Source: Cyanobium sp. Aljojuca 7A6
GTDB taxonomy: Bacteria > Cyanobacteriota > Cyanobacteriia > PCC-6307 > Cyanobiaceae
Direction of reading: 5' to 3'
Assembly: GCF_024346455.1 (NCBI RefSeq)
Contig: NZ_JAGQCY010000010.1
Coordinates: forward strand, 1 to 64,000
Length of the DNA stretch: 64,000 nt
Both the position numbers and the translations under genes were made by a program. Shown here in pieces: positions 7,181 through 34,263 of this stretch; within the stretch, counting starts at the first letter, position 1; the number at the start of each line of letters is the position of its first letter. A model generated the notes under the pieces. It ran no database searches, had not been told where the DNA came from, and worked only from the letters and a program-made list of their open reading frames with translations.

Positions 7181-7333
7181 GGGTCCAGCGTCAAGGGCCC
7201 TGCCAGTCAATCGGCGCTCGCCTGCGGCGCAATGGGGCCGGGGCCACGGGGTGATGACCGGATGTGTCCGGCGTGGCGGTGCGCCCGCGGCTCCGATGAT
7301 GGTCATCGATTTCCCGGAGTCCCCGGGGCCGCC

Positions 7334-7927: not shown

Positions 7928-7956
7928 AGGCTGGCTCCGCAGAGCGCTGCCGTCGA

Positions 7957-8472: not shown

Positions 8473-8725
8473 CCTCTTGGGCGGTTCATCTGGGGCGGTT
8501 CATCCAAGTTTTCCTCTCTTTCTCAGTTTATCTGCGGTCTACGGGCTGGCCAGGGGGCCTCTCGGCGCAGGGGCTGGGGCGAGTGGGTGGAGACCGTCGA
8601 CGCCTCAAAGTCCTGTCTGCGTTTAGATCCTGACCGGACTGGCCGATCGCGGCAGGGCTGCAGCAGCACCGCAGCGACTGCTGGGCCATGAGCGATAACT
8701 TGGTGTACTCTTAAGGGGCAGTGAA
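8473..8725. other. 253-base intergenic region with short tandem repeat
   Basis: Divergent spacer between the 171-aa protein and a small membrane protein. It holds two copies of GGCGGTTCATC one base apart in phase (8480-8490 and 8494-8504) and, at its right end, a possible extended -10 (TGGTGTACT, 8701-8709) for the small + strand gene. Confidence 0.35.
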
Positions 8726-8926
8726 ATGACGGCCATGGATCCTGTAAGCCCAGTCGCCCAGTTGGCAGTGGCGGCCATCAGCGGAGCAGCTTTTCTGGTT
8801 TCGATGCTGGTGATTCCTTTCCCCGAGTCCAAAGCGGACTCCTCCGCGGGCGTTACGCCGCCCTCCCATACAACCAGCACCACCATCCATCCCCTGGATA
8901 AGTCTGCCGCTCCCCTGATCAAGTAA
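8726..8926 (+). CDS. putative small single-pass membrane protein, 66 aa
   Basis: ATG at 8726 (second ATG at 8735) is preceded by AAGGGG at 8712-8717, a fair Shine-Dalgarno. The product has one hydrophobic segment (LAVAAISGAAFLVSMLVIPF, about residues 13-32) followed by a Ser/Thr-rich polar tail ending in APLIK. The size, topology and upstream signals make it a plausible thylakoid or plasma membrane microprotein. There is no family match I can name, and it could be spurious. Confidence 0.45.
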   Translation: MTAMDPVSPVAQLAVAAISGAAFLVSMLVIPFPESKADSSAGVTPPSHTTSTTIHPLDKSAAPLIK

Positions 8927-9219
8927 GCCTTCCTGGCCCGCTCGCCCCGAACGTCGATATCTGACCCGTCAGCCTGGAGCCCCCCTGAAGGAGGCCCTCC
9001 TGACAACCGACAGCCGGCTGTGTCCAAGCACCAGCCAACCCCACGACAAGGCTTTCAACCCCCACCCACGCCCTCCGCTGACCCAGAGCCATGGCGGGCT
9101 CAGCCGGGCGAAAGGCAATCCAACAGAGTGATGACCAAGGCCGTCCTTCCGGATGGGGCTCCGCCATGGTTCGCTCAGCCCGAGTCGCCTGATTCACCCC
9201 ATCCGAAGATGGCGGGGTG
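8927..9219. other. 293-base intergenic region without a convincing gene
   Basis: A + strand frame of 66 codons (9020-9220) runs into the lipase start but is very Pro-rich and lacks a ribosome binding site, so I do not call it. No promoter or terminator stands out. Confidence 0.35.
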
Positions 9220-9849
9220 ATGCTCACCATCGCCATGGCTTCAGGCCGGGAAACCTCCACGCGGCCCCCGCTGGTGCTGGTTCACGGGCTGTTCGACACC
9301 CCCAGGGTGTTTGAGCGACTGGAGCGTCGCTTGGCTGGCAGACGCGAGCCTCTGTTACTGCCCGCGCTGCCACTGCGCTTCGGCATCGCACCGATCCAGA
9401 CCTCGGCCCAGCGGCTCGCCGGTCACATTGAGGCGGCGTTTGGTGGCAGCGAGACAATCGACATTCTCGGCTTTTCCATGGGCGGCGTCATCGCTCGCAC
9501 CTGGATCCAGCTGATGGGCGGCCATGTCCGCACCCGCCGCTTCCTCAGCCTCGGCAGCCCCCAGCAGGGCACCTTGACGGCCCAGCCCTGGCCCCGCCCG
9601 CTGCTGGCCGGTGTTGCTGATCTCAAGCTGGGCAGTGCACTGCTGCGCCAGCTCAACGCCGACCTCACCACCCTGCAGGGGATCGACTGCAGCAGCTACG
9701 GCACCGCCACCGATCTGATGGTGCTGCCGGGCTGGCATGGGGTCCTGCCGATCGGGCCGCGGCGGATGCTGCCTGTCTGGAGCCACCAGCAGCTGCTGCG
9801 CCATCCGGCGGCTCTCGATCCGGTGGTGGAGGACTTGCTTCGCGCCTGA
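9220..9849 (+). CDS. alpha/beta-hydrolase, triacylglycerol-lipase-like
   Basis: 209 aa. Strand and oxyanion region PLVLVHGLFDTPRVFERL, nucleophile elbow ILGFSMGGVIART (catalytic Ser about residue 84), and a region FLSLGSPQQGT typical of EstA/LipA-type lipases and PGAP1-like esterases. The catalytic His may be in the HGVLPIGPRRMLP segment. No signal peptide, so cytosolic or membrane-associated. The ATG at 9220 is used; the frame begins one codon earlier with GTG. Substrate inferred to be an acyl ester; not further defined. Confidence 0.85.
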   Translation: MLTIAMASGRETSTRPPLVLVHGLFDTPRVFERLERRLAGRREPLLLPALPLRFGIAPIQTSAQRLAGHIEAAFGGSETIDILGFSMGGVIARTWIQLMGGHVRTRRFLSLGSPQQGTLTAQPWPRPLLAGVADLKLGSALLRQLNADLTTLQGIDCSSYGTATDLMVLPGWHGVLPIGPRRMLPVWSHQQLLRHPAALDPVVEDLLRA

Positions 9850-9898
9850 CGCTGATTCCGGCCCAGCATGGAGGTGGACGCCGAACCGCGAGGTCACC

Positions 9899-10441
9899 AT
9901 GCCGAATGTCCTGGCCGAAAGGCTCAGCGCCTGGGGGTTTTCCTGGGCGGGGTTGCGCGACAACCGCCGTGGGGAATGGTGGCTGATCGCCCAGATGGCC
10001 TTGATTCTGGCCCATCTGCTGCCGGCCACCCCCTCCCCCGTCTCGCTGGGCCTGCACTGGCCGCTTTCCCTGCGCCTCGGTGGTCTGGCGCTGTTCGGCC
10101 TGGGTCTGGTGCTGGCCGGCCAGGGCGCCCTGAACCTGGGTGCGAGCCTCAGCCCCCTGCCTGAACCGATGCCCGAGGCCGCCCTGGTGACCACCGGTGC
10201 CTACGGACGCTGCCGCCATCCGCTTTACCAGTCGCTGATCCTCTGCTCGCTGGGTGTCACCCTGGCCCTGGGCAGCCTGCTGCATCTGGTCCTGCTGCTG
10301 GGGCTGGTCGTGGTGCTGGGGTTCAAGGCGCGCCGGGAGGAGTCCCGCCTCTGCAGCCTCCATCCGGAGTACGCCGTCTATCGCGCCACGACTCCGGCCA
10401 TTCTTCCTGGTCTGCCCTGGCTGGATTGGCGCTCGGACTGA
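9899..10441 (+). CDS. isoprenylcysteine methyltransferase-like membrane protein
   Basis: 180 aa with about four hydrophobic helices. The C-terminal motif is that of the ICMT/PEMT (NnrU-related) methyltransferase group: [20 protein letters not shown] (about residues 96-115), a helix pair, then an acidic-aromatic [17 protein letters not shown] segment. In this family RHPxY and ExxLxxxFPxYxxY-type motifs bind S-adenosylmethionine and the lipid-like substrate. ATG 9899 begins 49 bases after the lipase gene; both may be co-transcribed. True substrate unknown in bacteria. Confidence 0.82.
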
Positions 10442-10503
10442 ATCCAGGCCATCCATCGCTTCATGGGGGCTCTGGATGGCAGGGACGGTTAGAACCGGGG
10501 CTG

Positions 10504-11238
10504 ATGCTCCCAGCCTGCCCCATGGCTCCGTTGACGTTTCTCCGTGGCCTGAGGGCCTACGGCCTCGCCGTATTGGTGGCTCTGACGGTGTTCGCTGCCG
10601 GTGCGCGGCCGGCGTTGGCGGCCTACGTGCTGCCGCCGTTGCCCTACTCGGCCGAGGCCCTGGCACCCTCAATCGATGCCACCACGATGAACATCCACCA
10701 CGACCGCCACCATGGCGCCTATGTGGCCAATCTCAACGCCCAGATCGCGGACCATCCCGAGCTTGAGCGGGTGTCGCTGGAGGACCTGCAGGGCCGGATC
10801 TCTCAATACCCGGCAGCGGTCCGCAACAACGGCGGCGGCCATTACAACCACTCCCTCTTCTGGCGGGTGATGGCACCGCCCGGGCAGGGCGGTGCCCCGT
10901 CCCCGGAGCTGGAAGCGGCAATCAGCACGGCCTTTGGGTCGCCCGAGGCCCTGCAGCAGCGCTTCGCCCAGGCGGCGACCAGCCGCTTCGGTTCGGGCTG
11001 GGCCTGGCTGATCCGCCAGCCCGATGGGGCCCTGGCGATCACCAGCACTGCCAACCAGGACAACCCGCTGATGGACCTGCCCGGGATCGAGCCGGGCCTG
11101 CCCCTGCTGGGTCTGGATGTGTGGGAGCACGCCTACTACCTCAACTATCAAAACCGCCGACCTGACTACATCGCCGCCTGGTGGTCGTTGGTGAACTGGA
11201 ACGAGGTGAACCGGCGCTTCGCTGAAGGCTCTGCTTAA
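10504..11238 (+). CDS. sodA: exported superoxide dismutase, Mn-type
   Basis: Mn/Fe-family SOD that dismutates superoxide to H2O2 and O2. Metal ligands are readable: first His in [12 protein letters not shown] (about 65), His in [10 protein letters not shown] (about 120), Asp and His in [13 protein letters not shown] (about 201-205). Two diagnostic features favour manganese: the [11 protein letters not shown] segment with Gly rather than Gln, and the Gln in NQDNPLM. A signal peptide ([19 protein letters not shown]) sends it to the periplasm or thylakoid lumen. Starts: ATG 10504 used, ATG 10522 also possible. Most cyanobacterial Mn-SODs are membrane-attached, consistent with this N-terminus. 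Confidence 0.92.
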
Positions 11239-11338
11239 GGCAGCGCCAGTAAATCCTGACACCTCCACTTGTCGGTAGCCGATACGACGATTTCCCAGGA
11301 AAATGGTCGCGAAAGTTAACCATATTGCTGCGATTGTC

Positions 11339-11755
11339 ATGGCCCTGTCCCGCACCGTCGAACTCCTCCCCATGGAGCGCTCGCTGCATGGGGAGGCCGT
11401 CTTCTCCGCCCCCCGCGCCAGCGATGAAACCCTGATCGCCGAGATCGGCAGCGGCGACTCCTTTGAACTGTTCCGCCACCGCTTCCAGACCGATCAGCTG
11501 CTCGTGCTGCGTGGATCGATCGATCTGGTGGTGCTGCAGAACCGCCAGCTGCGCCGCATCTCGCTGCGGGAGGACGAGGGCCTCTGGGTCCGCATTCCGC
11601 CGGGAGTGCCCCACGGCGCCATCAACCGGGGCCGTATCCCCGCCCTGCTGGTCAATGCCGTGCTGCGTCACGGCCCCAGTGATCCCCGGGACTACCGGCC
11701 CCTGCCGGTGCCGCACAAGCTGCGCAGCCAGTGGCGGCGCTTGGCGGTGGCCTGA
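11339..11755 (+). CDS. cupin-like protein, 138 aa
   Basis: A small single-domain cupin-type beta-barrel is suggested by RHRFQTDQLLVLRGSIDLVVL (one half motif, with His at the metal-binding side) and DEGLWVRIPPGVPHGAIN (second half motif with PPGVPHG). The characteristic GxHxH is reduced, so metal binding is uncertain. ATG 11339 is preferred; an in-frame ATG at 11303 adds 12 residues and has AGGA only two bases upstream. The segment between the two contains a TATTGC-like stretch that might be a -10. Function unknown. Confidence 0.65.
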   Translation: MALSRTVELLPMERSLHGEAVFSAPRASDETLIAEIGSGDSFELFRHRFQTDQLLVLRGSIDLVVLQNRQLRRISLREDEGLWVRIPPGVPHGAINRGRIPALLVNAVLRHGPSDPRDYRPLPVPHKLRSQWRRLAVA

Positions 11756-11837
11756 ACCGAGGGGAGTCGGTCCTCAGGGCTGGCGCCAGTGTTTGTTCCC
11801 ATCGGCTCCATCGCGCGATGATGGGGTCTTGTCGCCG

Positions 11838-13478
11838 ATGTCGGGGATGGCCAGGAGCAAGGTGCTGGTGCTCGGCCTCGATGGCTACGAAAACACCCTT
11901 GGCGACGCGATGATGGCGGCCGGCGAGCTGCCTGCCCTGGCGGCGCTGCGGGTCAGCGCCGCCCATGCCCTGCTCGACCATGGCCCTGCCCAGCGCACGG
12001 GGCTGGCCTGGGAGCACGTGGCCTCGGGCCTTTCTCCCGAGGATGCAGGGCGCTGGTCAGCCGTTGGCTTCGATCCGGCAACTTACCGGGTGTGGCAGGA
12101 GGGAACGGTCCTCACCCCATTCCCACACGGCCTGAAGGCACGCACGGTGGTGTTCGATACCCCCTACTTCGACCTGAAGCGCGCCGATCAGGTCCAGGGT
12201 CTGGTCGGCTGGGGCGCCCACGATCCGGGCATTGCCCCGTCGTCCCGTCCGGCGGCCCTGTTCGGCGAGATGGTGGACCGGTTCGGCACCTATCCGGCCA
12301 AGGAACACATCTACGGCCTGCCCTGGCCCTGCCCTGACCGTTGCCGGCGCATGGCCACCGGCCTGGTTGAGGCCGTGCAGCGCCGAGCGGACGCCAGCCT
12401 CTGGCTGCTCCAGCAGCGCTGTCCCGACTGGGAGCTGGGTGTGGTGGTCGTGAGCGAGCTCCATTCGGCCATCGAGGGCCTGTGGCATGGCGTCGATCCC
12501 GGCCATCCTCTGCGGGACCACCGTTCCGCGTCCCCGGCTGGAGAGGGACTGCGCCAGGTGTACCAGGCGGTGGACCAGCTGGTGGGGCGATTCCTCGCTG
12601 CTTTCCCCGAAGCCGTCGTGGTCGCCTTCTCCACCGGCGGCATGGGCCCGAACCACTCGGACGTGCTCAGCATGGCCCTGCTCAGTGAGCTTCTCCACAG
12701 AGAGGCCTTCGGCACACCACTGATGGGGGAGAGGCCCGACTGGTCGGGAGCCCCCGATGGCCTGCCGATGCTTGCACCGGAGGACAACTGGCACGCCGCC
12801 ATGCGGAGTCTGATCCCGACCCCAACGGCCCCCTCTCCGCTGCTGGGGCACCGGATAGTGCGCCGACTGCGCTCCTGGCTACCCAGTCGTTTCCAGCCTT
12901 CCAGCCAGGGGAGGCAACCGGAGATCCTGACCCTGGAGTGGATGCCGGCGACCCGCTACCAGCCGTTCTGGTCGTCGATGCGCGCCTTTGCGCTGCCGTC
13001 CTTCTACGACGGCAGGATCCGGATCAATCTGGTTGGTCGCGAATCCCATGGTCTGGTGCAGCCTCAGGACTACGGGGCGGTGTGCGACGAGCTGGTCGCC
13101 CTGTTGCAGGAGTGCCGCGACCCTCGCAGCGGAGACGGCATCGTGCAGGCCGTGGAGCTGCCGGCGCAGGGGCGGGATCCGCGCAGCTTGGGGCCCACCG
13201 AATCCGATCTGGTCATCATCTGGCGAGGCGCCCTGGCCCTCAGCCATCCCCGGCACGGAACCCTCGGACCGCTCCCCTATCGCCGCACCGGGGGGCACAC
13301 CGGCACCCACGGAATGCTCCTGCTGCGCTCGCAGCAACTGGCCCCCGGAGATCTTGGCCTGCGCAGCACCTTTGATGTCGTGCCGACCATCCTGGCGCTG
13401 CTCGGGGAGGCACCGCCACGCCCCCTCAGTGGCAGGAGCCTGCTCCCCGACGCCGTTGCCGCCACCAGCGCTCGATGA
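11838..13478 (+). CDS. alkaline-phosphatase-superfamily phosphodiesterase/nucleotidase-like protein
   Basis: 546 aa. N-terminal KVLVLGLDGYEN has the metal-binding Asp strand of type I phosphodiesterase/nucleotide pyrophosphatases; RTGLAWEHVASGLSPED carries the Thr nucleophile-like site. Central VVVAFSTGGMGPNHSD (about 265-280) matches the SxHGM/GxD-type metal site with His, and GGHTGTHGMLLLR near the C-terminus (about 492-504) supplies another His pair. No signal peptide is seen. A conserved tail, FDVVPTILALLG, is characteristic of the sulfatase/phosphodiesterase fold. Substrate unknown; related cyanobacterial proteins are annotated as nucleotide pyrophosphatases. Confidence 0.8.
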   Translation: MSGMARSKVLVLGLDGYENTLGDAMMAAGELPALAALRVSAAHALLDHGPAQRTGLAWEHVASGLSPEDAGRWSAVGFDPATYRVWQEGTVLTPFPHGLKARTVVFDTPYFDLKRADQVQGLVGWGAHDPGIAPSSRPAALFGEMVDRFGTYPAKEHIYGLPWPCPDRCRRMATGLVEAVQRRADASLWLLQQRCPDWELGVVVVSELHSAIEGLWHGVDPGHPLRDHRSASPAGEGLRQVYQAVDQLVGRFLAAFPEAVVVAFSTGGMGPNHSDVLSMALLSELLHREAFGTPLMGERPDWSGAPDGLPMLAPEDNWHAAMRSLIPTPTAPSPLLGHRIVRRLRSWLPSRFQPSSQGRQPEILTLEWMPATRYQPFWSSMRAFALPSFYDGRIRINLVGRESHGLVQPQDYGAVCDELVALLQECRDPRSGDGIVQAVELPAQGRDPRSLGPTESDLVIIWRGALALSHPRHGTLGPLPYRRTGGHTGTHGMLLLRSQQLAPGDLGLRSTFDVVPTILALLGEAPPRPLSGRSLLPDAVAATSAR

Positions 13479-23711: not shown

Positions 23712-24776
23712 GTGTCCGCCCCCGGCCGGCTGACCATCGTGGGTGGCGGCCTGGCAGGCAGTCTGCTGGCCCTGGAGCTGGTGGAGCGGGGCCTGCCGGT
23801 GACGCTGATCGACGCGGCAGAGGCCACCGCCACGGCGGTCAGTTACGGCGGGGTGGCCTGGTGGGCCGGGGCCCCTGGCAGTCTCGGCCCGCTGCTGCGC
23901 CAGGCCCCTGAGCGCTGGCGCCGGCTGCAGGGCCGGCATGGTTCTCTCGGCTGGCGGGGCTGCGGCCTGCGCCTCCATGGCGGCGGCTGGGGCACTTCCC
24001 TGTTGCGCCCCCCCTTCGCCCAGGTGGACAGCTCCGTGCTGATGGCGGCCCTGCCCGGGGTGCTGGTGGCCGCCGGGGTGGACCTGCGGCGGGCGCGGGT
24101 CCTGGCCCCGCCACGGCCGGAGGCCGCTGGCTGGCAGCTGCCGCTGGAGCCCGGGGGACCCCTGCTGACGGAGCAGGTGGTGCTGGCGGCCGGGGCCGGT
24201 TGCCGCGCCCTCGCCCCCGCCTTGCCGAACCGTCACCGGGTCAGCTGGGCCGGGGTGCTGGCCCTGCCGGCACGGCCGACCCTGCCGCCACGGTCCGCCA
24301 GCCCCTGGTGGCGGCACGCCATGCAGCGCCGCATCGTGCAGCCGCGTCACTGGCAGCGTCCAGCTCTGGAGAGTGCGGCGCCGGGGCTGGAGCAGGAGCG
24401 TTGGATCGTCGATGCCGGTTGCGCCCCCTGGGGCGCAGGGCTGCTGCTGGGCCAGATCAGCCTGGTGCGGCCGGGTCTGGAGCGCGGCGAGCCGCCGGCA
24501 ACGGCGGTCATGGAAGGGCGATTGCGCCAGGGACTGGCCGGACTCGACCCGCTGCTGGCGGCCCTGCCAGGCCCCTACCGCCAGGTGCCGGTGGCCTTCT
24601 GCAGCGGCGGGCTTCCCTTGGTGGGCCGGCTGCCTGGGGCGGCGGGCCTGTGGGTGTTCAGTGGTTTTGGCGGCGCCTTTGCCCAGGTGCCGGTGCTGGC
24701 TCCCCTGTTGGCCGATGTGATCGCTGGCGTGGCCGATGAGTCGGCCCTGGCCGGATTGGGCGTCCTGGCGGGCTGA
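23712..24776 (+). CDS. FAD-dependent oxidoreductase (DAO family)
   Basis: 354 aa. N-terminal Rossmann dinucleotide motif LTIVGGGLAGSLLALELVER (about 7-26, GxGxxG) and the acidic strand end LIDAAEA mark FAD binding. Mid-chain, VVLAAGAGCRALAP is the family's second FAD strand; the C-terminal LVGRLPGAAGLWVFSGFGGA is the DAO-type FAD-binding closing segment. Substrate unknown. GTG 23712 follows the psbP stop by two bases, and the stop is three bases before the next start, so the gene sits in a strict operon. Confidence 0.88.
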   Translation: MSAPGRLTIVGGGLAGSLLALELVERGLPVTLIDAAEATATAVSYGGVAWWAGAPGSLGPLLRQAPERWRRLQGRHGSLGWRGCGLRLHGGGWGTSLLRPPFAQVDSSVLMAALPGVLVAAGVDLRRARVLAPPRPEAAGWQLPLEPGGPLLTEQVVLAAGAGCRALAPALPNRHRVSWAGVLALPARPTLPPRSASPWWRHAMQRRIVQPRHWQRPALESAAPGLEQERWIVDAGCAPWGAGLLLGQISLVRPGLERGEPPATAVMEGRLRQGLAGLDPLLAALPGPYRQVPVAFCSGGLPLVGRLPGAAGLWVFSGFGGAFAQVPVLAPLLADVIAGVADESALAGLGVLAG

Positions 24777-24809
24777 CAGGTGGGCTCCCATCCAGCATGC
24801 TGGCGGGCG

Positions 24810-26153
24810 ATGGCCACGTCCGCTCCCCCGACCGGTGCAGCGCCGCCCCTGCGGCCGGCCGCTGGCTTGCGCCGCCGTTGGCGGGGCCTTGGTGATCGGG
24901 GCCAGGTGGGGGCCTGTCTGGTGGCCATGGGTGGGGCCCTGGGGCTGTGGGTGCTGTTCTGGCCCGTGCCCACAGAGGTGATGGGGCAGGGGGTGTTGCT
25001 TTACCCCGACACCGCCGGCCTGCTCGATGCCCGCGCCGGTGGTCAGGTGCGGCGCCTGCGGGTGGCCGTGGGGCAGAAGGTGCGCAAGGGGCAGGTGCTG
25101 ATGGAGTTGTACCTGCCGGTGCTCGATCGCCAGCTGCAGCAGCAACGCGGCAACCTGGCCCAGCTGGAGCGCGACAACCGGGAACTTGACCGTCGGGATG
25201 GCCTGCGGTTGGCCAGCGAAAAGCTCAGCGTCGACACCTCCCTGGCCAAGTTGGCCCAGGATCGGCGCCGCTACGAGGAGCTGGCGGCCACCTATGCGGA
25301 GAAGGTGCGCAACCTTCGCTGGCTGAGCCAGCGGGAGGTGGTGGCCCCCCTGGCTTCCGAGGTGGTGGCGGCTGAGCAGGGTCTGACCAGCACCAGCGTC
25401 AGTCTCGATGCGGTCAGGATCCAGGAGAAGGAGTTGCTGACCAGCTACGAGCAGGTCAAGCTCGACATCCAGACCCAGGCCTTGCGCCGCCGGTATCAGA
25501 TCGACGACATGCGCCGCCAGATCCGGGTCACCGAGGCCCGTCTGGCTTACGACGGCCAGGTGCTGGCCGACCGTGACGGTACGGTGCTGGATCTGCAGGT
25601 GATCCAGGGCCAGACGGTTGCCACCGGACAGCGCCTGGGCACCCTGGGCCGTGCCACTTCCAGCACCGGCGTGCGGGCGCCGATCCTGCGGGCCGTGGCC
25701 TATTTCGCCCCCGCCGATGCCCGGCGTCTGCCGGTGGGTCTGCCGGTGGAGGTGGTGCCCCTCTGGGACCAGCGGGGCCGGTTTGGTGGAATTGTGGGCA
25801 AGGTGACCCAGGTCCTGGCTCTGCCGGCCACGGAGGAAGACATCTCCACCACCATCGGCAACCCCCAGCTGGCCCGTGACCTGCTCAAGCGGGGTCCGGT
25901 GATGCGCACGGAGATTGAGCTGGAGCGGGATCCCACCAGCCGGGACGGCTACCGCTGGACCCTTTCGGGCGGCAGCGGCGTCTTCCCTGTGCGGGAAGGC
26001 CTCACCATTGCCGCCCATGCCTACGTGGAATGGCGCACACCGATCACCTACGTGATTCCAGGGCTGCGCTCCCTCACCGGCGGCTACCGCACACTTCGCA
26101 TGGATCGCCTTTGGGACCGCCCCTCCCTGCGCCAAAGCGGGCCGTTGCCATGA
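24810..26153 (+). CDS. HlyD-family membrane fusion protein
   Basis: 447 aa from ATG 24810 (GTG 24780, 3 bases after the upstream stop, adds 10 residues). A single N-terminal helix (ACLVAMGGALGLWVLFW, about 38-54) is followed by the biotinyl-lipoyl half motif GQVRRLRVAVGQKVRKGQV, long coiled coils (about 105-260) and the second lipoyl half near VLDLQVIQGQTVATGQRLGT (about 262-281), then a beta-barrel domain. This is the adaptor of a type I-like or RND/FUSC-like export system. The coiled-coil length and C-terminal domain recall HlyD proteins of NHLM-type peptide exporters, but no ABC transporter of that type is adjacent. Confidence 0.88.
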   Translation: MATSAPPTGAAPPLRPAAGLRRRWRGLGDRGQVGACLVAMGGALGLWVLFWPVPTEVMGQGVLLYPDTAGLLDARAGGQVRRLRVAVGQKVRKGQVLMELYLPVLDRQLQQQRGNLAQLERDNRELDRRDGLRLASEKLSVDTSLAKLAQDRRRYEELAATYAEKVRNLRWLSQREVVAPLASEVVAAEQGLTSTSVSLDAVRIQEKELLTSYEQVKLDIQTQALRRRYQIDDMRRQIRVTEARLAYDGQVLADRDGTVLDLQVIQGQTVATGQRLGTLGRATSSTGVRAPILRAVAYFAPADARRLPVGLPVEVVPLWDQRGRFGGIVGKVTQVLALPATEEDISTTIGNPQLARDLLKRGPVMRTEIELERDPTSRDGYRWTLSGGSGVFPVREGLTIAAHAYVEWRTPITYVIPGLRSLTGGYRTLRMDRLWDRPSLRQSGPLP

Positions 26154-26341
26154 GTGAACGACGCTGGTGGCAGATCCGCAATCCCTTACTGCGCCAGGAA
26201 CTTCCCTGGTTGATGAGTGAAGTGGTTCTTCTGGTGGTGCTGTGCAACGCCAATCCACCGGAACTGTGGTTCTGGTTGGTGGTGCTGCTGGTGATCCTGG
26301 GCTACAGGATGGAGCGCTGGATCTCCTCCCGGCCGGAGTGA
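26150..26341 (+). CDS. small two-helix membrane protein, 63 aa
   Basis: Overlaps the HlyD stop by four bases (ATGA), which strongly implies a functional partner. Two hydrophobic segments are separated by a short polar turn (WLMSEVVLLVVLCN, then ELWFWLVVLLVILGY) with basic ends (RRWW, RMERW). The topology and size match small auxiliary membrane subunits such as AaeX of AaeAB-type pumps, though the sequence similarity is not clear. No known family assigned. Confidence 0.75.
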   Translation: MSERRWWQIRNPLLRQELPWLMSEVVLLVVLCNANPPELWFWLVVLLVILGYRMERWISSRPE

Positions 26342-26417
26342 CGCCTGCGGTTCCCAAACCCTGCCAACAACCTTGCTCAAAACAGCGCGCACGCTCGCGC
26401 ACGCTCCGGTGATCCGC

Positions 26418-27590
26418 TCAGCCGGCGGTCTCCTGGAACCTGTGGGCGAAGCCTGACCAGGAGCTATCCGTTGTGGTTGCTGCTGTTTCCGCAGGACTGC
26501 CGGCGACCTGATCCTCACATCGAAGCAGCTTGATTTCGTGCATCAGAGCATTGCCATCGGCAAGGAGTTCGGCGATCGTTTCATGCCTTTCGGGTTGATA
26601 AGAGGTGATTCCATAGCTGAAATCAAGATTGTAGATTTTGCCCGAGAGTCCTTTTTCGTGCATCAAAGCTTCCTTGATGCGATGGATGACCGTCTCTGAC
26701 TGTTCCCGGGTGGAGTTGATCAGAAGCACCACGAACTCATCACCACCAAGCCTGGCAACGACATCGGAATCGCGACAGACATGCCTGATCTGATCGGCAA
26801 AGGTGATCAGGGCCAGATCCCCTTCCCCATGGCCGTGAAGGTCGTTGATGGTCTTGAAATGATCGAGGTCCAGATAAAGCAGCGAAACAGGCAATCCCTG
26901 GCGGGTAGAGAGTTGCAGACTCTGCTGGGCAAGAGCTAGAAAGCCGCGTCTGTTGTCCAGGCCGGTGAGCTCATCTTTGGTGGCCAGCAGGCTGGCCACC
27001 AACTCCTGCTCCACCAGGCTGGCCAGGTCCCTGAGGGTGTCGATCTGGTCCTGATTCAGGGAGCGGGGTGAGTCGTCGGCGATGCAGAGGGTGCCGATCT
27101 TGCGCTGATCAATGGTCAGGGGGCATCCGGCGTAAAAGCGAATGTGGGGGTCACCCAGGACCATGGGATTGTCGAAAAAACGCTCGTCCTCAGTGGTATC
27201 TTCCACGATCAATACATCGGAGCCAGTAATCGCATGCCCGCAGAAGGACACACTTCTGGCAACTTCTGAGATCCTCAGACCTACGCAGGATTTGAACCAT
27301 TGCCGATCTTCGTCAACGAGGCTGATCACACAGATCGGCACCTGGAAGATACGCCCGGCCATCCTGGTGAGGCGGTCGAAACGGATGTCGTCTCCCGTAT
27401 CCAGGAGCCGCAATGAGCGGAGCTTGGCGAGGCGGAGCTTTTCGTCCTCTGGGGTCTTGGGCGATTTCAATGCATCCCTCTGGAATTCATGGGCCTGGAC
27501 AACAGTGGCAATATGGAGGGGCAGGAAACCAGCTTGGAAAGGCCAGTTCGGAAGGGGAGCTTTGTCTGCTGTTCCACATGCGGCCAGCAT
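26418..27590 (-). CDS. GAF-GGDEF diguanylate cyclase
   Basis: 390 aa. An N-terminal GAF domain (about 60-200: FDRLTRMAGRIFQVPICVIS, VSFCGHAITGSDVLIVEDT, FYAGCPLTIDQRKIGTLCI) is followed by a GGDEF domain (about 205-360). The active-site motif RLGGDEFVVLL is intact and a product-inhibition I-site RDSD lies the usual five residues upstream. Makes cyclic di-GMP. The GAF may sense a small ligand. ATG 27590; a minus-strand TAATAT lies about 30 bases upstream. Stands alone between the FAD-HlyD operon and the FUSC/TolC operon on the opposite strand. Confidence 0.93.
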   Translation of the reverse strand: MLAACGTADKAPLPNWPFQAGFLPLHIATVVQAHEFQRDALKSPKTPEDEKLRLAKLRSLRLLDTGDDIRFDRLTRMAGRIFQVPICVISLVDEDRQWFKSCVGLRISEVARSVSFCGHAITGSDVLIVEDTTEDERFFDNPMVLGDPHIRFYAGCPLTIDQRKIGTLCIADDSPRSLNQDQIDTLRDLASLVEQELVASLLATKDELTGLDNRRGFLALAQQSLQLSTRQGLPVSLLYLDLDHFKTINDLHGHGEGDLALITFADQIRHVCRDSDVVARLGGDEFVVLLINSTREQSETVIHRIKEALMHEKGLSGKIYNLDFSYGITSYQPERHETIAELLADGNALMHEIKLLRCEDQVAGSPAETAATTTDSSWSGFAHRFQETAG

Positions 27591-27619
27591 GTGCTGATGG
27601 GCCGCAACAACCGTGGGGA

Positions 27620-27625
27620 ATATTA
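27620..27625 (-). promoter_or_regulatory. candidate -10 of the diguanylate cyclase gene
   Basis: TAATAT on the minus strand, 30 bases before the ATG, within a locally AT-richer stretch. No matching -35 stands out. Confidence 0.3.
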
Positions 27626-27716
27626 GCGTCTTTTGCCCATGCTCCCCATTCCTTGCTGCGCCTTAACTGCTGCTTCAGTCATTCAGCCAGTTGTAGAAAT
27701 GGCGTAGACCGACGAC

Positions 27717-29117
27717 TCAGTCTTCTTTCATCTTTTCTGCCATGTTGACTTCGTGAGACTCAAGCCAGCGTTCCAGCTGCACCTCGTTCCATGTCGCCGC
27801 CCACACCCAGCGTCCGATCGGCGCCGCCAGGGCAGCCACGAGCAGCAGCAGGGGCACCAGGGCGCCATTGCCGGCGATCTGGGCGACGAACAGGGCGCAG
27901 AACAGGGGGGTGCGGCAGGCGCCGCTGAACAGTGCCGTCGCTCCGATCCACACCAGCAACTGCCGTTCCAGGGGCGGAAGATCGCCGATCAGGGGCCCCG
28001 CCAGCAGGGCCCCCAGGGACATGGCGTCGTGCATGACACCGCCGGGGGCGCCGATGGCGATGCTCAGCACCGAGGCCAGCAAGCGCCAGGGCAGGACCTC
28101 GAGACCCGGGCGATCCTCGCCATAGGCCATCCGTAAGATCAGTAACTGGCCGTCGTTGAGACTCCAGCCATCGCTGGCCACGGCCGCCAGGCTGATCACC
28201 AAAGCAGCCCCCAGTGCCCAGATCAAGGGCCTTGGAAGGGCCGATCCCCCCGGACGTGCCGGTATGGAGAGCCACTGGCCCCAGCGTCTGGCCGTCCAGG
28301 CGGTACAGGCGGTGAACAACCCACCCAGCCATCCCGCCCCCAAGGTCAGCAACAGGGCCGGCGCGATCAGGTGGCCGCCGCTGCCCATCAGCAAGGTGAG
28401 GCCGGCATGGTGGGCGGGAGCCGCTTCGGCCATGCGCTGCCAGAGGCCGGTGGTGGCTCCGATCAGCACCCCCAGGCCCGTGGTCAGCAGGGTGCCGTTG
28501 ATGAGGGCGGCCGAGCGCCGGCGACACAGTTCCTCGATGGCATAGGTAACCCCCAACAGGACGGAGTTGAAGGCCATGCCCAGGCCGGCTCCGGCACCGA
28601 TCGCCAGCAGGACCGGCAGGGGCAGACGCCTGAGGGGGGCCAGCCTGGCTCGCAGCGCCAGCAGCAGGCTCGCCCCCAGCGAGGCGGAGGGGGATTCAAG
28701 ACCTACGGTGAGGCTGGCGCCATGGGTGAGCAGCAGCAGCGGCAGGCGGGCCAGCTGGCGCTTCAGATCCAGGGAGGCCAAAGCCGCAGAACGGGCCGGA
28801 CCCTGCTGCACCGGCTCCAGCTGCAGGGCCAGTACCCCGGTGAGGCCGCCCCCCCGGCTTCCCTTCAGGGGGCCATTCGCCAGCAGGGTCAGCAGTGCCG
28901 TGCCGGCGAACACCAGCAGCAGGCTGCCTCCGCGGACACCTCCTCCCTCGCCCAGGGGCCAGGCCCGCTGCAGACGGAAACCCAGAGCCGAAAGCCATTG
29001 GTAGGGCTGCAGCAGCAGCAGCAGCGGCAGCGCGGCCGCTAGCAGGGCGAGCACCTGGCCCCGGCGCAGGTTCCCGTCAGGCTGGACGTCGCCGAGGGTT
29101 GCAGGGGGAGGCGTCAT
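27717..29117 (-). CDS. ClC-family chloride channel/transporter
   Basis: 466 aa with about ten hydrophobic helices. ClC features: GSRGGGLTGVLA (variant of the GSGIP chloride site), SLTVGLESPSASLGASLLLA (variant GxEGP with the gating Glu retained in GLESP), and a later GAPGGVMHDAMSLGALL. A long N-terminal extension of about 30 residues precedes the first helix. In this operon it lies last, overlapping TolC by four bases. It could move Cl- for charge balance of the neighbouring export system, but that is inference. Confidence 0.85.
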   Translation of the reverse strand: MTPPPATLGDVQPDGNLRRGQVLALLAAALPLLLLLQPYQWLSALGFRLQRAWPLGEGGGVRGGSLLLVFAGTALLTLLANGPLKGSRGGGLTGVLALQLEPVQQGPARSAALASLDLKRQLARLPLLLLTHGASLTVGLESPSASLGASLLLALRARLAPLRRLPLPVLLAIGAGAGLGMAFNSVLLGVTYAIEELCRRRSAALINGTLLTTGLGVLIGATTGLWQRMAEAAPAHHAGLTLLMGSGGHLIAPALLLTLGAGWLGGLFTACTAWTARRWGQWLSIPARPGGSALPRPLIWALGAALVISLAAVASDGWSLNDGQLLILRMAYGEDRPGLEVLPWRLLASVLSIAIGAPGGVMHDAMSLGALLAGPLIGDLPPLERQLLVWIGATALFSGACRTPLFCALFVAQIAGNGALVPLLLLVAALAAPIGRWVWAATWNEVQLERWLESHEVNMAEKMKED

Positions 29118-30844
29118 GGCTCCAACTGCAGGCGGGCCGGAACCGGCGCGTCCGGATCGGTGGGCATGGGCAACAGTTCGCGCAGCAGCTGGGCGTAGGT
29201 GACGTTCACGTTCACGGTGGCCTCAAGGCGTTGCACGAGGCTGGCGATCAGGCGCTCCTGAGTGTTGGAGAGATCCAGCTCGTTGCTCAGACCCGCCTGA
29301 TAGCGGAGGCGGGCATCACGGAAAGCCTCCAGACTTGCCGCCACGCCGCGCCTGGCGGCCACCAGCCGCGCCAGGCTGGCTTCATGGCCGAAGAAGGCCT
29401 GCTCGATCCGCAGACGGATGTCGTTGCGCTGGGCGGCGTACTGCTGGGCCACGGCCGCCCCTCGGCGGGCCAGGGCCCGTGCCTGTCCCCGGGTGGTCCC
29501 GGCGTCGAAGAGCAGCCAGCTGACCGCCAGGCCCACCGACCAGTCGCTGCCGTAGGTGTTCAGGGAGGTGGCGACGGTGGCGCCGCAGCAGCCGCCATCG
29601 GCGACCCCCACATTCCAACTGTTGGCATTGCTGGCACTGGCCCCTGCCCTGGCGAACAGCGACAGCTTCGGCAACAGCCCGGCGGCGACGGCATCCTTCT
29701 GCAGCAGCAGGGCTTCGCGGGTGGCCAGAAGGGCTTCCAGCTCTGGGTTGTTCCGGTAGGAGGCCACCAGGCTGGCTTCCAGATCCAGGGGCCAGCGCGG
29801 CTGGAGGCGGACCGGGTCGCCGGCGGCGGGGGTCAGCTGGGGCGGCAGGTTGAGCAGGGCCGCCAGCCGCCGGCGGGCGATGGCCTGGTCCGCCAAGGCG
29901 GCGATCAGCTGTTCCTGGCCGTCCGCTTCGATCGCCTGGCGCCGCAACACATCCAGCCGGGGAACCAGCCCCGCCTGCTTGAGATCCAGGCTGTCCTGCA
30001 GGATCAGCAGGTCGTTGCGCACCACGGCCTCGCGGATGCGCACGAGTTGGTCGGCCCGCTGCAGCTGGTAGTAGCTCTCGCTCAGGGTCAGCTGAAGCCG
30101 CCGCAGGGCATCGGCGTAGGCCAGCCGGCTGCTGCGCAGACTCGCCAGGGCGGCCCGCGCCTTCGGCGTGCGGGCGAAATCCAGCAGCTCATAGCGCAGC
30201 TGCAGGCCGGCAGCCATTGCATTGGCGTTGGTGTTGAAAGACGCCCTGCCGCCGGGGGGAATGAAGAACGGGTTGCTGGGGGCGAACAGGGTTCCCGAGC
30301 CGGTGGGGGAAAAGAAGCTGGTGCTCGCCTGGTCGGTGCCACCGGCGGCATAGGCCGAGATCCGCGGCCAGTAGGTGCCCATCTGGCTTTGCAGCTCGGC
30401 CAGGCCCGCCGCCACCTCTTCGCGGCGGGCCTGCAGGGTGGGGCTGTTGGCGAAGCCGATCGCCAGGGTCTGCTCCAGGCTGAGGGCCTGGGGCTGGCCT
30501 TCGCGCAGGCTGCCGGCCTCCGGCAGCGCTAGTGGTGGCAGGGGCGCGGTGTTCTGCGGCGGCAGCGATGGGTTGGCCGGTGCGCCGCCGTTGAGAGGTT
30601 CCGACTCCGCTGGCAGCAGCTCTTCAAGGGCTCGGATCTGGCGATCCAGCTCGTTCCAGCGGCGCTCGAGGCGCCGCACGTCTCCGCTGCTGGCGGCCGT
30701 CAGGGGCTGACCCGCCAGCGGCCCTGATCCGAGGCCAACAGCCAATGCCAGCCCCGCGAGGATCCACCTGGCCAGGGGCCGACCCGTTCCGCTGCCCCCC
30801 ATGGCTCGCCGTCCCCCCCATCCAGCGCCCAGTTTGCTCGACAC
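29114..30844 (-). CDS. TolC family outer membrane channel
   Basis: 576 aa from GTG 30844; ATG 30802 gives 562 aa and begins closer to the signal peptide (LAGLALAVGLGSG). Classic TolC pattern: two related halves of long coiled coil. Readable: SLEQTLAIGFANSPTLQARR (first half, about 121-140), LLDFARTPKARAALASL, the second-half VGLAVSWLLFDAGTTRGQA and LRYQAGLSNELDLSNTQERL. A proline/alanine-rich linker sits between the signal and the first half. Serves as the outer-membrane exit for an efflux system. Confidence 0.93.
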   Translation of the reverse strand: MSSKLGAGWGGRRAMGGSGTGRPLARWILAGLALAVGLGSGPLAGQPLTAASSGDVRRLERRWNELDRQIRALEELLPAESEPLNGGAPANPSLPPQNTAPLPPLALPEAGSLREGQPQALSLEQTLAIGFANSPTLQARREEVAAGLAELQSQMGTYWPRISAYAAGGTDQASTSFFSPTGSGTLFAPSNPFFIPPGGRASFNTNANAMAAGLQLRYELLDFARTPKARAALASLRSSRLAYADALRRLQLTLSESYYQLQRADQLVRIREAVVRNDLLILQDSLDLKQAGLVPRLDVLRRQAIEADGQEQLIAALADQAIARRRLAALLNLPPQLTPAAGDPVRLQPRWPLDLEASLVASYRNNPELEALLATREALLLQKDAVAAGLLPKLSLFARAGASASNANSWNVGVADGGCCGATVATSLNTYGSDWSVGLAVSWLLFDAGTTRGQARALARRGAAVAQQYAAQRNDIRLRIEQAFFGHEASLARLVAARRGVAASLEAFRDARLRYQAGLSNELDLSNTQERLIASLVQRLEATVNVNVTYAQLLRELLPMPTDPDAPVPARLQLEP

Positions 30845-30859
30845 CGGCCACCCCGGCTC

Positions 30860-32203
30860 CTAAAAGCTCAAACCCAGCTGCAACCCCACCGCGAACACTC
30901 CGGGCACCCGGCCGGCTCCGCCAGGGTTGACGATCCACTGCAGGCTGGGCTGCAGGTTGAACGACCGGTTGATCCGCAGCTGGTAGCCGAGTTCCACCAC
31001 ACCTTCATGGCTGAGGCCGGGACTGATGGTCGGGCTGAAGCCCGTCCGGGCTAGACCGAGGATCAGCAGGTCGAAGGGCCGGCCAGGCAGGACTCCCTGA
31101 CTCACCAGACCGCCCCCGACATAGCTGGGCGTCGGATTGGTGGCGGGGTCGAACCCTGCGGCTGCGGTTCCCCAGAGCCTGTGGTCGAGGCCCCAGGGCA
31201 GGTGAATCGGCACGGTGGCGCTGCCGTACAGCCCCCGGTTCGGTCCGGTGCCGGCATAGGCCGCCACTTGCAGCAGGCCTCCGGGTAGTTGGCGCTCCAC
31301 CAGCACCGGTTGGGAACAGCTCCCGCGTCGGGCCCTGAAGCCGGCACCTTGGTGGCAGGCGGCGATCGGGGCCGTCAGGTGGCGGTTCAGCCAGGGGGCG
31401 GCATAGCTCCACTGCAGCTGATGGGTCCAGCCCCGTCCGGGGGGAAGGCCGCTGGATGTCCCCAAGAGCCCTGCCACCGCGTTGGTCGCGGCCAGATCAA
31501 AACTGGCCAGCCGCAGGGTGCTGGCTGGTGTTGGCCGCAGCCTCAGCAGGGCGCCCGTTGTGGCGACGGGAAAGATGGGAAAGTTGGGGATCGAGAACAG
31601 CACGGGCGCCCCGTTGAGGGCGTCATGCACGTAAAAGTCCTCGATCGGCGTGCTGAACAGATCGGGGCTCATGCTCACCGACCCCGCCTCCAGGCTCCAG
31701 CGGTCGTCGTCGGATCGGCGCTGGAGGCTGGCGCGGGTGAGCCAGAGCCCCACCGGATTGGCCACCTCCTGCAGCGACAGCACCGCCCCCAACCTCTGCG
31801 CATAGAGGGGGTCGCCATTGAAGCTGGCGATGGCGACATGCATGGCCCAGCGGTCCCATTCCCTCCCCGGTGAGCGGGAAGGGTCCGTGGGGACCCTCAG
31901 GGTCAGCGCCAGGGTCGTCTGCTGGATCCAGGTCGCTTCGCGGACCAGACCACCGGCAGGGTTGCCCATCGGTTCGGCCAGGACCTCCAGATCCAGATCG
32001 ACCCAGGCAGGCAGACCCAGCGTCTGCTGGAGGCGGCCCCAGCCTGGCTCGAGCCTGAGCAAGGGCACCGGTGCTGGCGACGGGCTTCCCTCAGGTTCGA
32101 TCGGCTCGGCCGCGCCGGGTACGGCGCTGGTCAGCAGCAGCGGCAGGGCCAGTGGCGACCAGAGCCCGGGGGCCTTCGGCGGAGAGCGGCGCAGTCCACC
32201 CAT
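30860..32203 (-). CDS. OprB-like carbohydrate porin
   Basis: 447 aa with a signal peptide (ALPLLLTSAVPGAAEP). The mature sequence is beta-strand rich, as expected for a 16-18-strand porin, with OprB-type landmarks: SMSPDLFSTPIEDFYVHDAL, VAAYAGTGPNRGLYGSATVP and GLVSQGVLPGRPFDLLILGL, and the aromatic terminal strand ending in GLSF. It would provide diffusion or uptake of sugars or similar small solutes. Lies three bases after the second FUSC gene, 15 bases before TolC. Confidence 0.85.
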   Translation of the reverse strand: MGGLRRSPPKAPGLWSPLALPLLLTSAVPGAAEPIEPEGSPSPAPVPLLRLEPGWGRLQQTLGLPAWVDLDLEVLAEPMGNPAGGLVREATWIQQTTLALTLRVPTDPSRSPGREWDRWAMHVAIASFNGDPLYAQRLGAVLSLQEVANPVGLWLTRASLQRRSDDDRWSLEAGSVSMSPDLFSTPIEDFYVHDALNGAPVLFSIPNFPIFPVATTGALLRLRPTPASTLRLASFDLAATNAVAGLLGTSSGLPPGRGWTHQLQWSYAAPWLNRHLTAPIAACHQGAGFRARRGSCSQPVLVERQLPGGLLQVAAYAGTGPNRGLYGSATVPIHLPWGLDHRLWGTAAAGFDPATNPTPSYVGGGLVSQGVLPGRPFDLLILGLARTGFSPTISPGLSHEGVVELGYQLRINRSFNLQPSLQWIVNPGGAGRVPGVFAVGLQLGLSF

Positions 32204-32206
32204 GGC

Positions 32207-33289
32207 TCAGCCGCGGGCCTCCCCCAGGGCTCGCCAGCTGTGCTCCGTCTGCTCGATGCTGTGCAGGGCTTGGCCGCAGAGCATCAGCCGGCTGGCATTG
32301 CGCTGCAAAAGAATCAGATCGAAGCCATCGAGTTCCGGATCGTGCAGCCATCGTTCCAGGCTCTCCCAAAGAGGTGGTGGTTCAAGGTGCGTGCTCGGGG
32401 GTGCTGGCCGGTGCCGGTGGGGCACTTCCAGGCAATGGTTCCATTGCTCCAGGCGTGCGGCCACCGCCCGCAGCAGTTCCGCCTGGGCCCCATGGACCCC
32501 CTCCAGCGGGCCGCGATCCGATGGCGTGTGCTCCAGAAGCCGCAGCCCGTCGACGACACCGACGAGTTGGGAGCCGGCCCCATTCAGGAGCTGGAAGAGA
32601 CGAAACGTGGCGTGGCTGGTGGGGTTGTTCCCCAGCTCGTCGGCCACCGCCGGCATGGCCTCGCGCAGCCCCACCAGCTGACGGCGCAAACCTTGCGCCA
32701 TCTGCAGCTCCAGTCGCTGGTCGGCCGCCATGGCGCCCGGGGGAAGGGGGGCAGCAGGGGCTTCGATGCGGTCGGCCTGGCCGACGAGGGCGGCGCCGAG
32801 GTCGGCCAGGAACCGCCGCAGCCGCTGCCGGTTGGTTTCCACCGCCAGGTCAGGCCAGAAGAGGCGCAGAGACACCAGGGCCACCAGGATGCCGGCCACG
32901 GTCCAGAACAGCCGCACCGGGACCCAGATTCCCAGCTCGCCGTCGTGGACCAACCAGCCCATCACGATGATGTTGCTGCCCACCTTGTAGCCCACCTCCA
33001 GCCCCAGGGCCGCCCCCAGCAACCGCATGGCAACGAGGGCCAGGCTCAGCCCCAGGGGCAGGGGCAGGTGGCTGAGGCCGGTGAACGACACGACCAGCAC
33101 CACGGCTCCCGCCACCGACCCCAGCAGCCGCTGACGGCCAAGGCCGATGGAGCCCCCGTAGGTGCCGGTGCAGACCACCAGCACCGCCAAGGGGGCGTAG
33201 AAGCCATAGGCCACCGGGGCCAGGGCGCCGAAGCCGTTCATCAGTCCGGCCGTCAGGGCCAGGCGCAGTTCGGAGCGGCGAATCAGCAT
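32207..33289 (-). CDS. FUSC-family half transporter (C-terminal half)
   Basis: 360 aa from ATG 33289 (overlaps the upstream FUSC stop by 7 bases). First about 170 residues: hydrophobic helices with the FUSC pattern LALTAGLMNGFGALAPVAYG and GGSIGLGRQRLLGSVAGAVV (about 36-55), VGSNIIVMGWLV. The rest is a soluble helical domain ending in ALHSIEQTEHSWRAL. Together with the preceding gene it equals one full-length FUSC protein (two TM-helix bundles each followed by a cytosolic helical domain), as in AaeB and related aromatic-acid efflux pumps. Confidence 0.82.
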   Translation of the reverse strand: MLIRRSELRLALTAGLMNGFGALAPVAYGFYAPLAVLVVCTGTYGGSIGLGRQRLLGSVAGAVVLVVSFTGLSHLPLPLGLSLALVAMRLLGAALGLEVGYKVGSNIIVMGWLVHDGELGIWVPVRLFWTVAGILVALVSLRLFWPDLAVETNRQRLRRFLADLGAALVGQADRIEAPAAPLPPGAMAADQRLELQMAQGLRRQLVGLREAMPAVADELGNNPTSHATFRLFQLLNGAGSQLVGVVDGLRLLEHTPSDRGPLEGVHGAQAELLRAVAARLEQWNHCLEVPHRHRPAPPSTHLEPPPLWESLERWLHDPELDGFDLILLQRNASRLMLCGQALHSIEQTEHSWRALGEARG

Positions 33290-34263
33290 CGGGCCACCAG
33301 GCTCAGGGTGCGCAGGCTCGCCAGCAGCGGCGGCTGCTCCTGGGCCAGGGCGAGCAGGGGCAGCAGGGGCAGCGATCGGTGCCGGGCCAGGGCCTGCCAT
33401 CGTCGGGGATCTAGGGCCGCGACCGGCGGGGACCCCCCCTGGAGCAGGGCCCCCATGTGCGCCAGGCTTTCCGCCAGCGGATCGTTGCCGCCATCGGCGC
33501 CGTGGTCCGTGCCTGGGCGGAGGCGGTCTGGAAGGCCAGCCAGCAGCCGCTCCCACTGCACCCAGTGGTGCTGGACCGACCCCCAGAGCTGCAGCCGCTG
33601 GGCCCAGCGCTGTCCCTGCATCCGCCGGCCGTGGGGACCACGGCGCTCCTGGGCCACCAGCTGTTCCATGGCCACCAGGTCGTGGCTGAGTTGGGCCGGG
33701 GGCAGGGGCAGGGGCCGTTCCCCCCGGCCCTCGAACCAGTCCCACTGACGCTGCAACTGGGCGATGTAGCCGTCGCGCAGTCCCACTTCCAGTCGTATCA
33801 GCCGGTCGAATCCGCGCCGGGGCCAGAACAGCAGTCCCACCAGAATCGCAATCACGCAGCCGACGGACGTGTCCAGCGTGCGGTTGAACACGTAGTCCCA
33901 GTTCAGGGCCACGTGGCTCGGAATCATCAGGAACATCAGGCTGACCAGCGTCGCTGTCCCGGCCGCCGACTGCCAGCCCAGCCAGCGCAGCAGGGGCAGC
34001 ATCAGCAGCAGCGACACCAGCACCCCCTGCCAGCCGGCCAGCACGGTGTGGACCAGAAAGGTCACCAGGCCACCGGTGATGGTGCCAAACACCCTCACCT
34101 TGGCGGCCTGCAGGCTGAGGTCGTCACCGTCTTCCATGACCGTGATCACGGCCAGCATCGGGTACCACACGTAGGCGATGCGCTCGAACCAGAGCGACAG
34201 CGCCGCTGTGACGAAGGCGGCCACCCCGAGCCGCAGGCTGTTGCGAAGCAAGGCGGATCGCAC
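33283..34263 (-). CDS. FUSC-family half transporter (N-terminal half)
   Basis: 326 aa from GTG 34263, preceded by GAGG. About six helices in the first 150 residues (AYVWYPMLAVITVMEDGDD is a FUSC/aromatic-acid-exporter feature, then VRVFGTITGGLVTFLVHT), followed by a cytosolic part including LEVGLRDGYIAQLQRQWDWF. First gene of a five-gene operon. FUSC proteins export aromatic compounds, including weak acids, in bacteria (AaeB, YccS) and plants. Substrate here unknown. Confidence 0.82.
   Translation of the reverse strand: MRSALLRNSLRLGVAAFVTAALSLWFERIAYVWYPMLAVITVMEDGDDLSLQAAKVRVFGTITGGLVTFLVHTVLAGWQGVLVSLLLMLPLLRWLGWQSAAGTATLVSLMFLMIPSHVALNWDYVFNRTLDTSVGCVIAILVGLLFWPRRGFDRLIRLEVGLRDGYIAQLQRQWDWFEGRGERPLPLPPAQLSHDLVAMEQLVAQERRGPHGRRMQGQRWAQRLQLWGSVQHHWVQWERLLAGLPDRLRPGTDHGADGGNDPLAESLAHMGALLQGGSPPVAALDPRRWQALARHRSLPLLPLLALAQEQPPLLASLRTLSLVARC

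Follow-up and report, generated by a model that had tools for sequence, protein, structure and literature searches.

A FUSC-type export pump proposed for two convergent operons of the cyanobacterium Cyanobium

Described FUSC pumps and the Cyanobium locus

Organic-acid pumps built around FUSC porters have been studied in proteobacteria. In the AaeXAB system of Escherichia coli, which mediates p-hydroxybenzoate efflux, an HlyD-type adaptor (AaeA), a FUSC porter (AaeB) and a small two-helix protein (AaeX) occur in one set, and in a review the outer-membrane partner of AaeAB is entered as unknown (PMC8277102). The fusaric acid pump FusCDE/Bucl8 of Burkholderia has been proposed to be tetrapartite, with an outer membrane channel, the porter FusC (733 amino acids, aa), a 67-aa protein described there only as a domain of unknown function, and a 293-aa adaptor, encoded in one operon with a LysR regulator (PMC7682875). 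The literature searched describes no cyanobacterial FUSC pump; a marine metagenome survey of genes for detoxification counts FUSC and, in its available passages, describes no such pump (PMC4161860). Here we analyze 64,000 nucleotides of Cyanobium sp. Aljojuca 7A6 (contig NZ_JAGQCY010000010.1, positions 1 to 64,000; hereafter the window), which encode in two operons an HlyD-type adaptor (HlyD1), a 63-aa two-helix membrane protein (sm63), two half-size FUSC subunits (FUSCa and FUSCb) and a TolC channel. These five proteins very likely form one envelope-spanning export pump, a proposal made in a first-pass annotation of the window and supported here by gene neighbourhoods and co-occurrence. The case draws directly on gene association, shared presence, shared decay, the pairing of the a and b subunits and the predicted fold of FUSCa.

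The genes are arranged as follows (the labels HlyD1 to HlyD3, the FUSC types W, P and Q, and the gene names LipA and RecR are our own naming):

24780-26153, plus strand: HlyD1, periplasmic adaptor (HlyD_D23, 1.1e-7)
26150-26341, plus strand: sm63, 63-aa small two-helix membrane protein (two hydrophobic stretches)
26418-27590, minus strand: GAF-GGDEF protein, between sm63 and ClC (Pfam)
27717-29117, minus strand: ClC-type chloride channel/exchanger (PF00654, 2.5e-24)
29114-30844, minus strand: TolC-family outer membrane channel (PF02321, 3.2e-46)
30860-32203, minus strand: OprB-type porin (PF04966, 1.5e-22)
32207-33289, minus strand: FUSCb, half-size FUSC porter subunit (PF13515, 2.8e-8)
33283-34263, minus strand: FUSCa, half-size FUSC porter subunit (PF13515, 1.8e-9)

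Open reading frames and Pfam searches recovered every component that the first-pass annotation had named (the adaptor, the 63-aa protein, both FUSC halves, OprB, TolC and ClC); its gene list omitted the GAF-GGDEF gene between the operons, whose product is not thought to be a pump part. The adaptor start given there, 24810, is an in-frame ATG at codon 11 of the HlyD1 reading frame, and 23712, quoted as the start of the region, belongs to an FAD oxidoreductase gene. The listed FUSCb reading frame extends to 33745, and the domain match and codon-usage call favour the ATG at 33289. The start of sm63 overlaps the stop of HlyD1 by 4 bases, FUSCa and FUSCb overlap by 7 and TolC and ClC by 4, and all minus-strand genes of the FUSC operon overlap or almost abut. 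Given these short overlaps, both sets look like tight operons, placed tail to tail. No LysR-type regulator was found among the genes named by Pfam or NCBIfam between about 23 and 37.6 kb, the part of the window scanned for one; LipA and RecR, which precede the named genes, were recognised by eye. The FAD oxidoreductase and PsbP genes before HlyD1 were considered as pump parts and rejected, as TolC intervenes in several loci (for example L197, L207 and L241).

Linkage, shared presence and shared decay

To get a comparative view of this arrangement, we collected 80 loci, of which four with less than 61% identity were HlyD2-type and were set aside, leaving 76 named HlyD1 loci. The small gene directly follows HlyD1 in 75 of the 76, 74 by the distance rule plus L255, where the overlap goes slightly past that rule; the remaining locus (L225) stops at a contig edge. 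A FUSC gene lies within 10 kb 3' of HlyD1 in 62/76 loci, at less than 700 bases in 47, at 700-3500 bases in six and farther away in nine. Seven of the 14 other loci have less than 3 kb of DNA left, including the decayed L233 of genome G025, and three (L185, L193 and L259, matched to genomes G003, G008 and G006) have FUSCa about 11 kb from HlyD1. TolC is present in 63/76 loci. In gene maps of 40 loci, HlyD1 and the small gene are adjacent, with FUSCb-FUSCa and TolC directly facing them in many; the type of FUSC opposite HlyD1 (window-like, P or Q) differs between genomes. L201 has HlyD1, the small gene, FUSCa and FUSCb in a single row on the same strand, and L200 keeps this order up to its contig end. 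One of the contigs collected, L245 (CALPNT020000054.1), is titled as a Bifidobacterium breve metagenome-assembled genome and carries the picocyanobacterial locus; this title is very probably wrong.

The first-pass annotation had named independent occurrence of the HlyD and FUSC operons in most relatives as a finding that would speak against one pump. Such independence was not observed: in 99 genomes, including that of the window, with HlyD1 called at E 1e-170 or better and FUSC at E 1e-15 or better, all 29 genomes with HlyD1 also had FUSC, four had FUSC only and 66 had neither (Fisher 5e-21). Among the FUSC-only genomes (G012, G016, G017 and G030), G012 and G017 are less than 90% complete and G016 holds an HlyD1 remnant.

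The association extends across the phylum. A profile of the small protein matched 27 of 386 cyanobacterial genomes, and FUSC was found in 27/27 of these versus 24/359 of the rest, where its matches were weaker (best 4e-39); adaptors of this clade (E 2e-90 or better) were confined to the same 27 genomes. By coordinate comparison in the 386 genomes, and with one row of 27 positions that contains a stop (G427) excluded from the linkage counts, FUSC lies within 6.5 kb in all 19 rows of the HlyD1-type small protein, and directly downstream of the small gene in all 15 distant or HlyD3-type rows, one of which (G330) has its HlyD gene about 13 kb away. In three other cyanobacterial families the genes form the row HlyD-small-FUSC, and the FUSC there is 692-746 aa long and contains two FUSC domains; in several loci of these distant families the small gene was seen by the profile and missed by the gene caller.

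The Cyanobium genome itself holds related sets outside the window. L063 (G000:C1:140001-159000, 7140-11344, near 150 kb on contig C1) has HlyD3, a small gene and a FUSC half in a row with a divergent TolC, and is a third pump set of this genome. L061 (G000:C30:86001-106000, 9825-12903) is a paralogous HlyD2-small-TolC set. L062 (G000:C30:14001-34000, 8843-10920) is a second pair of FUSCa and FUSCb, with about 50% identity, lacking an adaptor and flanked by unrelated genes (mraW-like and an NADH dehydrogenase subunit).

Decay of the locus was seen in several genomes. In G040, a stop and a frame change interrupt the window-type HlyD1 close to its start, 19 inner residues are missing from sm63, FUSCa contains a stop and has lost its end, and the start of FUSCb is absent; TolC, OprB and ClC show no stops, the two aligned pieces of TolC sharing one frame. 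In G025, stops and deletions affect HlyD1 and sm63, and all that is left of the FUSC pair is a single open remnant of about 330 codons, with TolC, OprB and ClC again free of stops. Each of these two genomes carries, at another site, a second HlyD1-small-FUSC-TolC set that is intact, so the window-type set may have become redundant there. G016 has an HlyD1 remnant with both FUSC genes broken and TolC also only a remnant, and G002 has lost its local FUSC pair, with HlyD1, sm63, TolC and ClC open and a FUSC pair elsewhere. Joint decay of adaptor, small gene and porter is the expectation for parts of one machine.

These decays also bear on a possible integral role of ClC and OprB in the machine. 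The overlapping or nearly touching frames of the FUSC operon would fit such a role, which we nevertheless consider very unlikely: both genes stay open in G040 and G025 while HlyD1, sm63 and FUSC are damaged, which argues that neither is a core part, and each is limited in range, ClC being seen in 12/76 loci and OprB, counted on the 3' side, in 12/76 (some loci being short). In the gene maps, ClC occurs only near the window's own lineage. The earlier description of the porin and ClC as additions to the pump thus agrees with our data.

Adaptor, small protein and porter compared with known families

The first-pass annotation had allowed that the adaptor might be of the NHLM type and serve an unseen ATP-binding cassette (ABC) or peptide exporter, which would make HlyD1 the adaptor of an NHLP bacteriocin exporter encoded elsewhere and its adjacency to FUSC a matter of chance. 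Indeed, HlyD1 passes TIGR03794, the NHLP bacteriocin adaptor model (198.5 versus a cut-off of 156.2 bits), and is homologous to ABC-linked adaptors. However, the same model is passed by the FUSC-row adaptor of L070 (205.5 bits), and also by HlyD2; TIGR03794 thus also captures FUSC-linked adaptors, and its name is probably misleading for HlyD1. No ABC partner was found: no NHLM ABC gene (TIGR03796/TIGR03797) scored over cut-off in the Cyanobium genome, whose two best-scoring ABC genes are each adjoined by a separate HlyD gene, and scanning the 80 loci by motif revealed no ABC gene less than 3 kb from the adaptor.

For comparison with ABC-type adaptors, we used 14 loci with weaker adaptors, three from the 99-genome search and 11 from the phylum search, in which 37 further genomes had an ABC-type adaptor match. 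An ABC gene adjoins the adaptor in 12 of the 14 (the neighbour in L157 was unflagged by the motif and the adaptor of L156 uncalled). In the adaptor tree, which is unrooted and has some long branches, the ABC-linked adaptors examined form a clade of their own (94/81), FUSC-row adaptors group with HlyD3 (97/88) and HlyD1 groups with HlyD2 (100/100). HlyD2 was also considered as proof of an ABC system and rejected, its locus holding cytochrome oxidase, GMC oxidoreductase and GH63-like genes; the ABC label of one HlyD2 row (L066) is due to a nearby MsbA-like gene, and the other HlyD2 rows of the tree have no such label. Given the separate clade, the FUSC-row adaptor that passes the same model and the lack of an ABC partner in the scans above, an ABC exporter as partner of HlyD1 was rejected as highly improbable.

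The predicted model of HlyD1 has one N-terminal helix, a lipoyl part, a beta-barrel and an alpha-hairpin of about 70 residues per arm, with moderate confidence (predicted local distance difference test, pLDDT, 77.6; predicted template modelling score, pTM, 0.51). Foldseek returned general adaptors (MacA, EmrA), which do not name the porter type. The HlyD profile and AaeA are linked by hhalign (94.1%, E 1.2e-7), as are the FUSC profile and AaeB (83.8%, E 7.9e-6), although HlyD1 has 415-457 aa, depending on the start chosen, versus 310 in AaeA, and AaeB is one chain where the cyanobacterial porter has two.

The small protein compares differently. sm63 contains the stretch NANPPELWFW and had no match in Pfam, NCBIfam or among solved structures, and the L070 member of its family had two below-cut-off matches to larger membrane proteins. 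The first-pass annotation had likened it to AaeX. This assignment found no support in the tests made: besides the lack of a Pfam match, hhalign of AaeX against the small-protein profile gave 1.2%, no match, and the AaeX-type domain DUF1656 (PF07869) was found in 0/386 cyanobacterial genomes, including that of the window, with a positive E. coli control. WFW is present in all 46 family members from the loci and the window, and [PA][EQ]xWFW in 40. These 40 have no Lys or Arg in the turn, whereas at least one such residue stands at the N-terminal end in 40/40 and at the C-terminal end in 32/40. Charges at the ends and none in the turn suggest, from sequence, that sm63 is a hairpin with both ends inside and the conserved NPPELWFW turn outside. 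AaeX, unlike sm63 with its charges at the ends, has an Arg pair between its helices, suggesting the opposite topology. In six HlyD3-type small proteins an Arg stands in the turn, at the [PA][EQ]xWFW site, and their topology is less clear.

The full-length FUSC profile PF04632 had no match at E 0.001 in the Cyanobium genome (FUSCa scores 15.2 bits versus a cut-off of 30.9), so half-domain profiles were used, and PF13515 scores over cut-off in both halves. In the FUSC tree, the 17 b rows group together (98/88), and so do the a rows (98/94) apart from one of the 17, the long row from L168; the inner order of the two groups is similar, and FUSCa and FUSCb are thus probably an obligate pair. FUSCa is predicted to have an ALMT-like fold. 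Its model (pLDDT 85) aligned with ten ALMT entries over nearly the whole chain (303-319 of 326 residues), at Z 10.8-14.6, with the next unrelated row at Z 6.7 and a sequence identity of 12-14% in the ALMT alignments. Foldseek alone gave E 0.0036 at best, with ALMT entries in the top eight rows; the case for the fold thus rests on those eight rows and the gap in Z. Searching with a sequence profile gave a concordant result (ALMT12/QUAC1, E 7e-6), and neither FUSCa nor FUSCb matched the ALMT family profile PF11744 at E 0.1. Unlike plant ALMT channels, the Cyanobium porter has two different subunits, which are linked to an adaptor and TolC. ALMTs are grouped with PF13515 in a review (PMC10490231), and these plant channels carry organic anions such as malate (PMC10490231; PMC5047901). 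By analogy, the pump substrate is likely anionic.

The proposed pump and its meaning

Several observations weigh against a single pump. G030 is a plain exception, with FUSC present and HlyD1 absent. Three HlyD1 loci (L192, L237 and L240) have no FUSC although 10 kb are present, and L257 has none in 5.5 kb, although the genomes matched to these four (G002, G011, G058 and G035) each have a FUSC pair elsewhere. All eight HlyD2-type rows in the phylum sample lack FUSC within 10 kb, and none was nearby in any HlyD2 locus mapped. The window's two operons are convergent, unlike the single set of AaeXAB, and so are not co-transcribed. The search profiles were partly built from linked loci, so that linked loci are favoured; many picocyanobacterial loci derive from one ancestral neighbourhood and are non-independent; and the losses in G040 and G025 may be connected rather than independent events, given a near-identical second set in both.

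Some of these points would fit a different explanation, in which FUSCa/b is a stand-alone ALMT-like organic-anion channel or porter, HlyD1-sm63-TolC uses another porter or is shared, and the neighbourhood is merely inherited. ALMT channels function without an adaptor, HlyD2-small-TolC sets occur without nearby FUSC, and FUSC occurs without nearby HlyD in L062 and without HlyD1 in G030. On the other hand, one-row arrangements are found in several families and in the HlyD3 set of the same genome, HlyD1 is never without FUSC in the 99 genomes, and HlyD1, sm63 and FUSC decay jointly while TolC, ClC and OprB stay open. As such, we regard a stand-alone FUSC as unlikely.

For the five-protein pump, we infer a physical complex, the heterodimer, the direction of transport, an anionic substrate, and the role and topology of sm63. 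FUSCa and FUSCb would pair as a heterodimer in the inner membrane, a porter with the FUSC/ALMT fold that exports an organic anion from the cytoplasm; with a single helix as its anchor, HlyD1 would build the periplasmic tube, and TolC would provide the exit through the outer membrane. In the inner membrane, sm63 would probably dock or stabilise the joint between porter and adaptor, taking the place held by AaeX/DUF1656 in proteobacterial FUSC pumps. ClC and OprB would be accessory, perhaps for charge balance and outer-membrane permeation. As in FusCDE/Bucl8, channel, porter, small protein and adaptor would be the four parts of one pump. With a FUSC-superfamily porter and a linked HlyD-type adaptor, the proposed pump is a cyanobacterial variant working like AaeXAB and FusCDE, and it is not filed as a member because no DUF1656 protein was found.

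More tentatively, and as a combined reading that we hold to be possible rather than probable, these sets may constitute a cyanobacterial FUSC pump class of their own, with a WFW-hairpin fourth subunit that is unrelated in sequence to AaeX/DUF1656 and opposite in predicted topology, and with an exchangeable adaptor/small/TolC module; porterless HlyD2 sets would borrow a FUSC dimer in trans, and FUSC a/b types would replace each other at the same locus.

The set provides an export route in picocyanobacteria that can be tested, and a small-subunit family whose window member is unnamed by Pfam and NCBIfam. It also shows that the curated 'NHLP bacteriocin system secretion protein' model takes in FUSC adaptors. 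Finally, a split a/b porter with a predicted ALMT-like fold offers a way to ask how one fold can serve both as a plant anion channel and as a bacterial pump.

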